Assembly (NCBI RefSeq): GCF_027625995.1
Contig: NZ_CP115396.1
Location: forward strand, 4,611,001-4,675,000
Direction of reading: 5' to 3'
DNA length: 64,000 bases
Source: Hymenobacter yonginensis
Lineage (GTDB): Bacteria; Bacteroidota; Bacteroidia; Cytophagales; Hymenobacteraceae
A program made the position numbers and the translations under genes. Each line of letters starts with the position of its first letter. The stretch's first letter is position 1. Shown here piece by piece: positions 25,714 through 30,279 of the stretch. The notes under the pieces are model-generated. The model was given only the letters and a program-made list of their open reading frames with translations. It did not search any database and was not told where the DNA came from.

Positions 25714-26955
25714 TCACGCCGAAACTTCGGCCACCAGCTCGTTGGTGCTGACGGGGCGCAGGCGGCCTGTGCGCACGATGAAGGCGCCGTACTTGCGCAG
25801 CGTGTCGCGGTGGCGGATGAGGTGGGCCAGGGCCACGTAGCCTACTACGTATTCGTCCTCGTCGGCTTCCTCGGAAATCTCGCTGAAGTCGAGCAGGTCG
25901 ATGATGCGGTCCTCGTCGGTGCGTAGGTAGATTTCCACTTCCAGGTCGGAGGCGTACTCCGGGGCTTCGGCGGCTTTGGGGTACTGGTAGGCGAAGCCCT
26001 GGCGCAGCGCGGCCAGATCGGCCAGCACTGCCGATCCGGTGGGGTGCCCGCCGGCCCCGCGGCCCCGCAGAAACTGCTCGCCGGCGAAATCGGCCTCAAT
26101 TACCACGCCGTTGAACTCGTCGTCTACGCTGTACAGCGGCGACTCAGGGCCCACCAGCTGCGGGGTCACCAGCACCGTCACGCGGCCGTCAGGCAAACGC
26201 TGCAGGCCGGCAATGACTTTGATTTTCTGGCCCTGGCTGGCGGCAAAGGCAATATCGACGGCGCTGATGCCCTCAATGCCCAGGTTCAGTACCTCGTCGG
26301 GGTTCAGGAACGCGCCGTAGGCGTGGGCAGCCAGCAGCACGGCTTTGGAGCGCGGGTCGAAGGCGCCCATGTCCAGGGTGGGGTCGGTTTCGGCGAAGCC
26401 TTTCTGCTGGGCCTCGGCCAGCGCCGGGGCGTAGTCGGCGCCGGCTTCGCCCATGCGGGTCAGCACGTAGTTGGACGAGCCGTTGAGGATGCCGGTCACG
26501 CTGCGCAGCGGCTCGGCCCCGAAGTAGGCATCGAGGGTGCGAATCACCGGAATGCTGCCGCACACGGCTGCTTCGTAGAGCAGCGTGCCGCCGGTTTGCT
26601 GCTGCAGCTGCACCAGCTCCGGCAAGTGGCGGGCCAGCATGGCCTTGTTGGCCGTCACCACGCGGCGGCCCTGGCACAGCGCCTCGCGCACCAGCCGGAA
26701 GGCCTCGTCGGCGTCGTCAATCACCTCCACCAGTACGTCCAGCGAGGCATCCTGCAGCAGGTCGTCGGCGCGGAAGTCGAACCGGTTTAGTGGCAGCGTA
26801 CGGGCTTTGGTGGGGTTCTTGACGGCAATGCGGGCAATTTCAAAGCCTGCTTCGGGCTGCTGCTGCAGAATGTCGTAGAGGCCCTGGCCCACGCAGCCGA
26901 ACCCAATCAGGCCAATACGAAGCGGGGCAGAAGCGGGAGCAGGATTAATGGACAT
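25714..26955 (-). CDS. hom: Homoserine dehydrogenase
   Basis: 413 residues. Nucleotide-binding GLIGFGCVGQGLYDIL at the N-terminus; NKAMLARHLPEL and YEAAVCGSIPVIRTLDAYF with the substrate-site residues; GILNGSSNYVLTRM, the HSD signature; FAETDPTLDMGAFDPRSKAVLL, which contains the catalytic Asp and Lys region. The C-terminus is short and only a remnant of the ACT regulatory domain can be argued. It reduces aspartate semialdehyde to homoserine with NAD(P)H. The start overlaps the metX stop by 11 nt, so it is last in metY-metX-hom. Its supplier, asd, is elsewhere at 47739-48737. Confidence 0.95.
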   Translation of the reverse strand: MSINPAPASAPLRIGLIGFGCVGQGLYDILQQQPEAGFEIARIAVKNPTKARTLPLNRFDFRADDLLQDASLDVLVEVIDDADEAFRLVREALCQGRRVVTANKAMLARHLPELVQLQQQTGGTLLYEAAVCGSIPVIRTLDAYFGAEPLRSVTGILNGSSNYVLTRMGEAGADYAPALAEAQQKGFAETDPTLDMGAFDPRSKAVLLAAHAYGAFLNPDEVLNLGIEGISAVDIAFAASQGQKIKVIAGLQRLPDGRVTVLVTPQLVGPESPLYSVDDEFNGVVIEADFAGEQFLRGRGAGGHPTGSAVLADLAALRQGFAYQYPKAAEAPEYASDLEVEIYLRTDEDRIIDLLDFSEISEEADEDEYVVGYVALAHLIRHRDTLRKYGAFIVRTGRLRPVSTNELVAEVSA

Positions 26956-27994
26956 AGGTCTGGACAGAAAATCGTTCGAGAAAGTGCGTGAGCTGGGTGG
27001 TTTCCAGTAGAAAGCCGTCGTGGCCGTACTGGGAGTCCATTTCGGCGTACATGGCGCCCTGAATGTGCTGGGCCAAAAGCTGCTGCTCAGCGGGCGGAAA
27101 CAGCACGTCGGAGGTGATGCTGATGACGAGGGTGCGGGCCCGGATGCGGCCCAGGGCCTCCCGCACGCCGCCGCGGCCGCGCCCCACGTGGTGCGAGTCC
27201 ATCGTGCGGCTCAGGGCCACGTAGGAGTAGGCGTTGAAGCGGGCCACCAGCTTGTCGCCCTGGTAGCGCTGGTAGGAGCTGGCCCGGAAGCCATCCAGCG
27301 CGTCGTCGGTGGTTTCGGTCTGGCTGCGCTGATAGGCGTCGTAGCTGCGGTAGCTGAGCAGGGCCATGGCCCGGGCCGCCCGCAGGCCGGCCGCGCCGCC
27401 CTCGGGCGTGGCCGCCGCGTACGTCGGGTCGGCGAAGATGGCCAGCCGCTGCGCCTCGTTGAAGGCAATGCCCCAGGCCGAATGGCGGGCGTTGGTGGCA
27501 ATCAAAACCAGATTCTCAAACAGCGTAGGCTGCTGCACGGCCCACTCCACGGCCTGCTGCCCGCCCAGCGAGCCTCCAATCAGCGTATTGATCTGGCGCA
27601 AAGCCAGGTGCTCGCGCAGCGCCTCGTGCACCGCCACCAGGTCGCGCACCGTCAGCAGCGGAAACGCATGGTACAGCGACTCGGCCGCAGAATCGGGCGG
27701 CGACACGGGGCCGGTGCTGCCGTAGCAGGAGCCCACCACGTTGGCGCATACTACAAACCAGTCGGCCGGATCGAAGTGGCAGCCGGCCCCGAACAGGCCG
27801 GGCCACCAGTCGAGCACGTTGGCGTTGGCCGTGAGGGCGTGGCACACCCACACCACGTTGTCGCGGGCGGCGTTGAGGCGGCCGTAGGTCTGGTAGGCTA
27901 TTTCCACCTGCGGCAGCAGCGCCCCGTTTTCCAGCCGCAGCGGCCGGGGCAACCGGAACACGTGCGGCGCGTCAGAAGAAATAGTAGAGCTCAT
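26945..27994 (-). CDS. metX: Homoserine O-acetyltransferase
   Basis: 349 residues from the ATG at 27994 (MSSTISSDAPHVF). Alpha/beta-hydrolase acyltransferase: substrate-site VCHALTANANVLDWWPGLFG, nucleophile elbow LIGGSLGGQQAVEW (Ser), acid in ISITSDVLFPP, His in SQYGHDGFLLE. It acetylates homoserine from acetyl-CoA, giving O-acetylhomoserine for MetY. The residues alone do not fully exclude succinyl use, but the pairing with metY supports acetyl. The start codon shares its A with the TGA of a small upstream frame (TGATG). Confidence 0.93.
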   Translation of the reverse strand: MSSTISSDAPHVFRLPRPLRLENGALLPQVEIAYQTYGRLNAARDNVVWVCHALTANANVLDWWPGLFGAGCHFDPADWFVVCANVVGSCYGSTGPVSPPDSAAESLYHAFPLLTVRDLVAVHEALREHLALRQINTLIGGSLGGQQAVEWAVQQPTLFENLVLIATNARHSAWGIAFNEAQRLAIFADPTYAAATPEGGAAGLRAARAMALLSYRSYDAYQRSQTETTDDALDGFRASSYQRYQGDKLVARFNAYSYVALSRTMDSHHVGRGRGGVREALGRIRARTLVISITSDVLFPPAEQQLLAQHIQGAMYAEMDSQYGHDGFLLETTQLTHFLERFSVQTYVH

Positions 27995-28317
27995 CAGAAA
28001 GAAAAAAGGAGCGCGAAAATCAGTTTCGCGACGTGCGAAGCGCGTGGCCGCCAGTCGGTGCAAGTGGCGCACCGGCTGCCCGCCTGCGGCGCGTATGCCA
28101 GGCCGGAGCCCGGCGGTGCAAATCGGCCACCGGGGCCGTGAGAATATCCATAGCCCGCAGGCTGAGCCGGCAGTGCCGGCCCAGCCCCGGCCATGGGCGG
28201 GCAGGGAGTATTGGCTTCCTCTCTCACAAAAAAGCCGACGTCCTGCCCGCGTGCCGCGAGGCTGGAGGCGGGGCGGGCTGCCCTCTCAAAACAGCCCGCC
28301 CGTAACCCCACTCTCAC
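27995..28317. other. metY-metX spacer with strong hairpin
   Basis: 323 nt without a recognised gene. At 28271-28301 there is a hairpin with a perfect 10-bp stem (GGGCGGGCTG and its complement) right after the metY stop. A 66-codon Gly/Pro/Ala-rich frame (ATG at 28194) ends in TGATG at the metX start. No riboswitch motif was found here. Confidence 0.6.
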
Positions 28318-29914
<1,597 letters not shown>

Positions 29915-30076
29915 CTAGCAACAGCAACAACACGCGCCGCAACAGCCGCGCATTCGCATTCGGCCGGCAGCTGGGGCCGTAGCCGCAGAAACGCGCAAAC
30001 CCCACGGCGAAGCAGCAGGCCCGAAGGCGGCCGAAGCGGTGGGGTACTGGGGGGCGAAAGCGAGTGTGTTTTCCAT
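29915..30076 (-). CDS. Cysteine-rich leader ORF before metY
   Basis: 53 codons from the ATG at 30076 to TAG at 29917-29915. The first 38 residues are Ala/Pro-rich (MENTLAFAPQYPTASAAF at the start). The end reads RMRMRGCCGACCCCC: two Cys, Gly-Ala, then five Cys. Seven of the last nine codons are TGT or TGC. A Shine-Dalgarno-like GGAG lies 4 nt before the ATG. Cysteine-codon runs in short upstream ORFs are known from cysteine-responsive attenuation in mycobacteria; here the gene controlled would be metY. The codon read and stop were checked base by base. That it is translated and senses Cys-tRNA is inference. Confidence 0.65.
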   Translation of the reverse strand: MENTLAFAPQYPTASAAFGPAASPWGLRVSAATAPAAGRMRMRGCCGACCCCC

Positions 30077-30235
30077 GGTACTCCGAGGTTATATGCCCCG
30101 CCGCCGGATGGCTGGTCGGGTAGGAATTGGCACCTTTCGCGCGGTCGAAGGTTGCCAGTGGGTCAGGGAGCCTATTCTCTCGCCACTTCTGTATAAATCC
30201 TATGAAAACTTCCCCGCCGCGAGCGGGGGAGTACC
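30077..30235 (-). promoter_or_regulatory. Complementary anti-SD and SD flanking the riboswitch
   Basis: On the minus-strand RNA, GGTACTCC (30235-30228) near the 5' end is the exact 8-nt complement of GGAGTACC (30084-30077), which is the Shine-Dalgarno region of the leader ORF. A hairpin (CCCCGC / GCGGGG) follows the anti-SD; the riboswitch sits between the two. Pairing would close a helix outside P1 and hide the ribosome site. Confidence 0.6.
30088..30200 (-). promoter_or_regulatory. SAM-I (S-box) riboswitch
   Basis: RNA on the minus strand has the S-box core: GGCAACC (30156-30150) and GGTGCCAATTCC (30134-30123). P1 is supported by TTATA (30196-30192) pairing with TATAA (30093-30089). P2 is AGTGG/CCACT with a kink-turn-like CGA...TGA pair; its loop TAGG (30174-30171) pairs with CCTA (30124-30121) as the pseudoknot. 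P3 is ACCTT/AAGGT. SAM-I aptamers bind S-adenosylmethionine and lower expression of methionine genes. It lies before metY, as expected. Confidence 0.85.
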
Positions 30236-30247
30236 GGGTTGGTGTTG

Positions 30248-30279
30248 CAAAGGTATAGGCGCAGTTTTGATATCTGCAA
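30248..30279 (-). promoter_or_regulatory. Promoter of the metY-metX-hom leader
   Basis: TTG-N21-TACCTTTG on the minus strand: TTG at 30279-30277, -7 box at 30255-30248. The start would be near 30241, so the anti-SD begins within the first 15 nt of the RNA. Confidence 0.75.

Follow-up and report, generated by a model that had tools for sequence, protein, structure and literature searches.

A Cysteine-Ended Leader ORF Directly Behind a SAM-I Riboswitch Before metY in Hymenobacter and Relatives: A Candidate Two-Input Leader RNA

Introduction

Poly-Cys leader ORFs of mycobacteria, which have a leaderless start, have reportedly been studied experimentally by Canestrari in 2020. The ORF described here resembles these mycobacterial leaders in being a short upstream ORF with a Cys run near its stop codon, found there before cys genes. 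It differs from them in occurring in Bacteroidota, in lying directly behind a SAM-I riboswitch, in preceding metY and cysH and in being enriched in Met codons. As far as the consulted part of the source goes, Cys leaders were predicted in mycobacteria, as the original prediction for this locus had stated, and in other Actinobacteria; a conserved terminator hairpin was not detected in the mycobacterial ones, for which Rho was proposed (PMC1262725). Cys codons within a leader ORF also define the uORFC-8-2 motif before cysS in Rhodobacterales. That system belongs to another phylum and has an intrinsic terminator and two Cys codons in tandem, for the most part at positions 14 and 15; a riboswitch is not mentioned in the sections of the paper at hand, whereas here a SAM-I aptamer adjoins the leader ORF (PMC8632094).

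On the riboswitch side, placement of the ribosome-binding site within the 3' strand of P1 is a known SAM-I expression platform, which the excerpt consulted describes for riboswitches in general and not for a leader peptide (PMC2258182). Our locus shares with such riboswitches the aptamer and, as proposed here, a start region masked by P1 and its flanks, yet the masked start would belong to a leader peptide (PMC2258182). In the case of Sinorhizobium metA, a SAM-II riboswitch sequesters the Shine-Dalgarno sequence and translation starts 74 nt further down; a leader peptide with regulatory codons is not mentioned in the portion of the article consulted, whereas here a SAM-I aptamer is combined with a Cys-ended ORF (PMC9373788). 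Within the phylum, leader peptides have been suspected in Flavobacterium psychrophilum (PMC9723704) and in Bacteroides (PMC7366714). Both are short ORFs in 5' leaders, for which the available passages name neither a Cys run nor coupling to a riboswitch. The original prediction knew of no Cys leader beside a SAM riboswitch in Bacteroidota, and we likewise recognized no report of such coupling in the open-access literature, a scope outside which most subscription papers lie.

Results

The Leader ORF and Its Operon

The window, a stretch of 64,000 nucleotides of Hymenobacter yonginensis (NZ_CP115396.1, positions 4,611,001 to 4,675,000), contains a leader ORF of 53 codons at 30076..29915 on the reverse strand (-), which also carries all other features described below. 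As predicted, it runs from ATG to TAG and ends in RMRMRGCCGACCCCC; seven of its last nine codons are Cys, these nine and the stop codon being read at 29915..29944. The Shine-Dalgarno-like GGAG was likewise found 4 nt ahead of the ATG, and the start region around it, GGAGUACC at 30077..30084, is proposed to be masked when SAM is bound.

The ORF had been placed between a SAM-I riboswitch and metY, and matches on both sides agree with this. Upstream, 9 nt from the leader ATG, an aptamer at 30086..30199 displays the conserved sequence and structure of the SAM-I (S-box) class (RF00162, 62.2 bits, E 5e-12, gathering score 44.4). Downstream lies metY (28318..29700) encoding O-acetylhomoserine sulfhydrylase (TIGR01326, 683.6 bits, cut-off 495.1), followed by a metX-like gene for a homoserine O-acyltransferase (26945..28072), with TIGR01392 as best match at 354.1 bits and hence under the cut-off of 500, and by hom for homoserine dehydrogenase (25714..26955; NF004976, 313.4 bits, cut-off 205). 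The family matches bear out the order metY-metX-hom, with the metX-like gene scoring below its family cut-off.

A putative promoter of the leader is located at 30248..30279 (TTGC, 20 nt, TACCTTTG). We take it to be of the Bacteroidota -33/-7 type, and by eye a TTTG box was seen near the corresponding place in 11 listed leaders. Between promoter and aptamer, at 30212..30228, a GC-rich hairpin is followed by AAGTTTT and has a terminator-like appearance; one such site was found against 0.7 expected in shuffles of the region. A hairpin with AAGTTTT ahead of the aptamer recurs with altered arms in the leaders of relatives, and resembles a terminator preceding the riboswitch.

Conservation of the Cys-Ended Leader Before metY

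Searches were centred on G001, the nearest relative genome used, and found metY in 73 of 80 family genomes and in 75 of 118 genomes of the order. They yielded 140 distinct metY matches, for 131 of which the upstream region was read, the remaining nine (seven from the family search, two from the order search) being left out. A covariance model built from 16 aptamers, including that of the window, detected an aptamer upstream of metY in 115 of the 131 loci (48/51 plus 67/80) and none in the other 16. Leader ORFs were defined by a rule blind to Cys: of the ATGs lying no more than 60 nt from the aptamer, the first to open a frame of at least 12 codons was taken. By this rule a short ORF directly follows the aptamer in all 115 aptamer-bearing loci. 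These leaders, like that of the window, show one mark of an amino acid attenuator, a short ORF that precedes a biosynthesis operon.

Conservation of the Cys run among relatives had been set beforehand as the test of the original prediction. At least three Cys codons stand among the final 12 in 99 of the 115 ORFs and at least four in 93; after dinucleotide shuffling of the sequence downstream of the retained ATG, the same was seen in 77 (1.3%) and 10 of 5750 shuffles, respectively. The loci are related, and their counts are therefore not independent. The recurrence rules out a feature of a single genome, and the prediction was not refuted by this test. Across several genera and families the N-terminal parts of the peptides vary and only the terminal Cys run is kept at the 3' end. 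Such retention of regulatory codons in a drifting peptide is a further mark of an attenuator, and the comparison supports the reading of the ORF as a Cys-codon leader peptide.

The Cys-ended ORFs of the 99 loci are 23 to 62 codons long (median 47) and stop at TAA in 66, at TAG in 30 and at TGA in three cases. Cys makes up 44% of their final 12 residues and 0.9% of the others, in loci that were picked for Cys. Met, which was not a selection criterion, rises from 2.2% elsewhere to 9.7% of the final 12, and Arg from 4.3 to 8.2%. In ten closely related leaders of the window's genus the Cys codons are all identical and offer no example of synonymous change within the genus. In seven of the 99 loci, over 420 nt separate the leader stop from metY, and another gene may intervene there; in the 89 loci retained for analysis of the intervening RNA, with loci at other distances left out, metY starts 91 to 329 nt past the leader stop.

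The other 16 of the 115 aptamer-bearing leaders also carry a short ORF in this position, one with fewer than three Cys among its final 12 codons (L093-L096, L104, L107, L109 and nine others). Met-Arg-Met immediately precedes the Cys run in several separate lineages. A search pattern based on MRMR matched 33 of 101 genomes, and several of the 30 loci read were unrelated genes; it was for this reason dropped as a basis for counts.

The cysH Leaders of the Genus

In the window's genus cysH is likewise found behind a SAM aptamer. With a query protein that matches the PAPS reductase domain (162.6 bits) the gene was found in 42 of 61 genomes, and the leaders of the best 30 of these 42 matches (L360-L389) were read. 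In this set the 3' end of the aptamer was recognized by a sequence pattern in 30/30, and a GTG-start ORF of at least 12 codons begins 7 to 13 nt past it in 29/30. At least four Cys occur within the final 22 codons in 27/30; by the stricter measure of at least three Cys in the final 12, the number is 21/30. Also in 21 of these best 30 of 42 leaders, QHGCC is followed by more Met and mostly more Cys codons. The Met codons stand among the Cys codons as if both amino acids were read.

Possible Coupling of the Aptamer to the Leader Start

Just before the GC hairpin and the aptamer, the window contains GGUACUCC (30228..30235), the exact complement of the start region GGAGUACC (30084..30077), which abuts the leader ATG. 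Segments of the type GGUACUC(C) and, ahead of the ATG, (G)GAGURCC allow seven to eight contiguous pairs, G-U included, in 19 of the 23 genus loci; pairs are fewer or interrupted in L085, L090, L072 and L206. At most five of 100 shuffles paired as well in 13 of the 23 loci, and two of 100 for the window, in a test made post hoc on the very sequences in which the GGUACUCC-type pairing had first been noticed. When all genera are considered, the aptamer flanks pair best in a helix that ends at most 4 nt from the leader ATG, or beyond it, in 94 of 109 loci.

Pairing of the flanks with the leader start surpasses 95% of the flank shuffles in no more than 27 of 99 metY loci and fails to do so in 72; among the best 30 of 42 cysH leaders it does so in one and not in 29. 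With these counts, an extended P1 was rejected as a general masking device. They also favor a reading in which the two signals act independently, low SAM or low Cys each sufficing for metY, and in which SAM exerts no control over the leader ORF. Against this stand the near-fixed distance between aptamer and ATG, 7 to 11 nt in 93 of the 99 Cys-ended loci, the complementary segments retained in the 19 of 23 genus loci, and the scarcity of terminator-like sites. In a set of 98 Cys leaders, which includes the window and a few loci picked by their Cys run, such a site lies between the aptamer and the leader stop in 13 and is absent there in 85. By comparison, 28 further high-scoring SAM aptamers were examined in the window's genus, and 25 have such a site within 110 nt downstream; the genes behind four of the 28 code for a homoserine dehydrogenase, a Cys/Met PLP enzyme, a homocysteine methyltransferase and a PALP-family enzyme. 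Independent action seems to us rather doubtful.

Under the preferred reading, in which SAM gates translation of the leader, the Cys-leader aptamers would use a platform different from that of neighboring SAM leaders of the genus. The complementarity suggests that the leader start is masked once SAM is bound, and the riboswitch may act on the leader ORF rather than on metY.

RNA Structure at and After the Cys Run

A hairpin (GCUGUUGCUAGCC / GGCUACGCAGC) lies at 29895..29925, with the final Cys codons and the stop codon in its 5' arm. The same hairpin sequence was folded in L035, L048 and L060. Of 30 relatives examined for a stop-codon hairpin, 14 have one that at most one of 30 shuffles equals in stability, and six have one that is equaled by six or more. 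By eye the arms co-vary in several relatives (UAGCC/GGCUA, UAAGC/GCUUA, AACCG/CGGUU). Right after the hairpin, at 29868..29894, the sequence forms a C-rich, G-poor tract, possibly a Rho-loading site. Past the leader stop, C outnumbers G in 75 of 98 leaders, a number that stands by itself without a background figure from other leaders of these genomes.

An intrinsic terminator was considered as the final step and set aside, a terminator-like site between the leader stop and metY occurring in 13 of the 98 leaders (L100 among them). We likewise set aside the Cys run as the element that masks the metY start: RNAalifold gives the corresponding helix in one genus, without any pair changed on both sides. 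In a duplex test, the best partner of the Cys run begins 42 to 224 nt ahead of the metY start. When 30 leaders of the window's genus were aligned and folded with RNAalifold, almost no consensus fold emerged downstream of the ORF (-4.1 kcal/mol); this stretch has diverged too far for alignment. These 30 were taken from 38 collected leaders, five from another genus with a different end being set aside together with L084, L087 and L089.

The Cys run might have been kept for its RNA alone, as a TGY repeat that pairs with other RNA, with the ORF being incidental. Some complementarity of the run to downstream RNA does exist and is clearest in one genus other than the window's, where a seven-pair helix has 86.7% of its cells paired and two pairs changed on both sides. 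This covariation is modest, its score being reached by five of 500 shuffles and its number of changed pairs by 28 of 500. Overall the pairing is weak: in 89 loci the mean z is -0.81 versus -0.39 for a control stretch. In addition, in the 99 of 115 leaders the Cys run shares the reading frame of the ATG behind the aptamer and lies near the stop codon, and both Cys codons are used (TGT 343, TGC 179). A role in RNA pairing alone is therefore highly improbable in our judgment, and we retain the reading of the run as codons for a translating ribosome.

Poly-Cys ORFs Elsewhere in Bacteroidota and Beyond

Two patterns were used to search for similar ORFs before other genes. The first, five Cys codons followed by a stop codon or TGG, matched 113 of 247 Bacteroidota genomes, and 30 loci and 20 stretches were read. 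Since this pattern admits TGG and meets (TGY)n repeats within genes, its matches were used as context alone; six (L119, L123, L128, L139, L154, L161) look like chance. Among the others, poly-Cys ORFs precede cysS (L116, L145), a sulfate-binding protein gene (L150), a PhyH-family gene (L129; L130 and L133 start similarly) and, together with a SAM aptamer, cysH (L117). Among the loci of this pattern that were given to it, the aptamer model matched L117 and left L116, L145, L129 and L150 unmatched.

The second pattern, six Cys codons followed by TAA or TAG, was run on one genome per species for 84,980 species and gave at least 118 stretches. Eighty listed loci were read, 31 with a downstream ORF and 49 with none within 500 nt. 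Among the matches listed, 12 of the 31 lead to sulfur genes: cysS in five (two of them cut by the end of the locus), a Cys/Met PLP enzyme in five, cysH in one and a nitrite/sulfite reductase in one; 11 of these 12 records are from Bacteroidota. In L303 a short ferredoxin-like ORF lies between the poly-Cys ORF and the gene for the Cys/Met PLP enzyme. Nine more of the 31 listed lead to PhyH-family genes (four, assigned by their N-termini and all from Flavobacterium), TonB receptors (two), OsmC, a CMD protein and a pyridine nucleotide oxidoreductase. The other ten of the 31 listed, nine of them outside Bacteroidota, precede no sulfur gene; two gave a Pfam match (PMT_2, PEMT) and eight gave none. 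Of 12 six-Cys loci given to the aptamer model, eight matched (L252, L260, L273, L274, L283, L303, L311, L320), and L255 and L308 had no match; the other cysS loci were screened for an aptamer by a crude pattern alone.

A closely similar poly-Cys ORF (..MRMCCCCCC) precedes the PhyH-family gene in L255, L268, L292 and L305 (Flavobacterium) and in L129, L130 and L133. This gene sits in a conserved operon, and the aptamer model found no SAM aptamer in L129 and L255, the two loci given to it. Poly-Cys ORFs also stand before TonB-dependent receptors or a SusC/RagA-type fragment (L143, fragment; L147, TonB; L265; L270), where the receptors may serve the uptake of sulfur compounds.

Attenuators are also expected before genes of the matching metabolism, and this is the place of the Cys leaders before metY, cysH, cysS, the nitrite/sulfite reductase and the sulfate-binding protein gene. 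The Cys and sulfur genes behind such ORFs, metY/metZ types among them, provide further backing for the Cys-leader reading; some others (TonB, PhyH, OsmC) are without a clear link to Cys.

The same set of genes bears on two other explanations. Copper-responsive Cys-rich leader peptides exist in other phyla, and the Cys-rich end of the ORFs described here, often preceded by Arg-Met-Arg-Met, could be imagined as a nascent chain that binds a metal or an oxidant. We found no conserved Cys spacing or peptide motif by which a metal or redox sensor would be recognized: the number of Cys varies from three to eight in the final 12 codons of the 99 loci, their spacing varies too, and the remaining peptide is unconserved. 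Together with downstream genes that, where identified, are largely sulfur amino acid genes, this makes a peptide sensor very unlikely; the TonB receptors, OsmC and the oxidoreductase may still have metal or redox roles.

The other explanation keeps the Cys codons as sensor and reverses the sign. Stalling at these codons would then lower metY and spare sulfide for cysteine synthesis, for which metY and cysteine synthase compete, and genes of the cysK/cysM type were indeed matched in 19 of 19 relatives, 14 of them above the cut-off. Yet similar Cys leaders precede cysS, cysH and a sulfate-binding protein gene, where induction by Cys shortage makes sense, and MetY-type enzymes, going by the family name, are also able to act as cysteine synthase. 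We therefore consider the reversed sign improbable and retain induction of the operon by Cys shortage.

Discussion

The original observation of a Cys-ended leader ORF between a SAM-I riboswitch and metY is correct. What this analysis adds to it is a possible action of the riboswitch on the leader ORF, the spread of the design to cysH and the enrichment of Met codons. The recurrence of an aptamer and a Cys-ended ORF before sulfur genes suggests that SAM and cysteine are both read in one leader.

We consider it likely that the leader RNA takes two inputs, with SAM gating translation of the leader ORF, a shortage of Cys-tRNA stalling the ribosome at its end, and the operon being switched on when both are low. 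In the first input, the expression platform of the SAM-I riboswitch would be the start region of the short leader ORF. As the complementarity suggests, paired aptamer flanks would mask this start when SAM is bound and leave the leader ORF untranslated, and at low SAM the ORF would be translated. In the second input, scarcity of charged Cys-tRNA, and perhaps of Met-tRNA too, would presumably cause the ribosome to stall on the terminal Cys run. The stalled ribosome would cover the stop codon, melt the hairpin beginning in the final Cys codons and reach over the first part of the C-rich tract. The RNA just downstream would thereby be kept from acting, so that transcription or translation could continue into metY-metX-hom. 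When Cys is plentiful, the ribosome would finish and leave, and the operon would be turned down. For the final step we favor Rho-dependent termination or masking of the metY start over a simple intrinsic terminator. The net result would be an operon that is on when SAM and Cys are both low, with the sign of the response as we infer it; such AND logic is not the sole logic with which the parts are compatible.

The same leader design probably serves cysH in the window's genus, and Cys leaders without a detected riboswitch may do so for cysS and other genes of the phylum. Whether a serial RNA gate, widespread in the order of the host, and its riboswitch-free versions together make up a ribosome-directed cysteine regulon of Bacteroidota is a question on which we see the case as evenly balanced. 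In this wider reading, the leaders of metY and cysH would each integrate one metabolite with one or two aminoacyl-tRNAs.

If true, a large phylum would coordinate its sulfur genes through ribosomes on short Cys-ended ORFs, which before metY and cysH would be coupled in series with a riboswitch. A simple sequence rule would then predict regulated genes, including the PhyH-family operon in Flavobacterium and TonB receptors, and the leader would represent a natural two-signal RNA gate testable by standard reporters.
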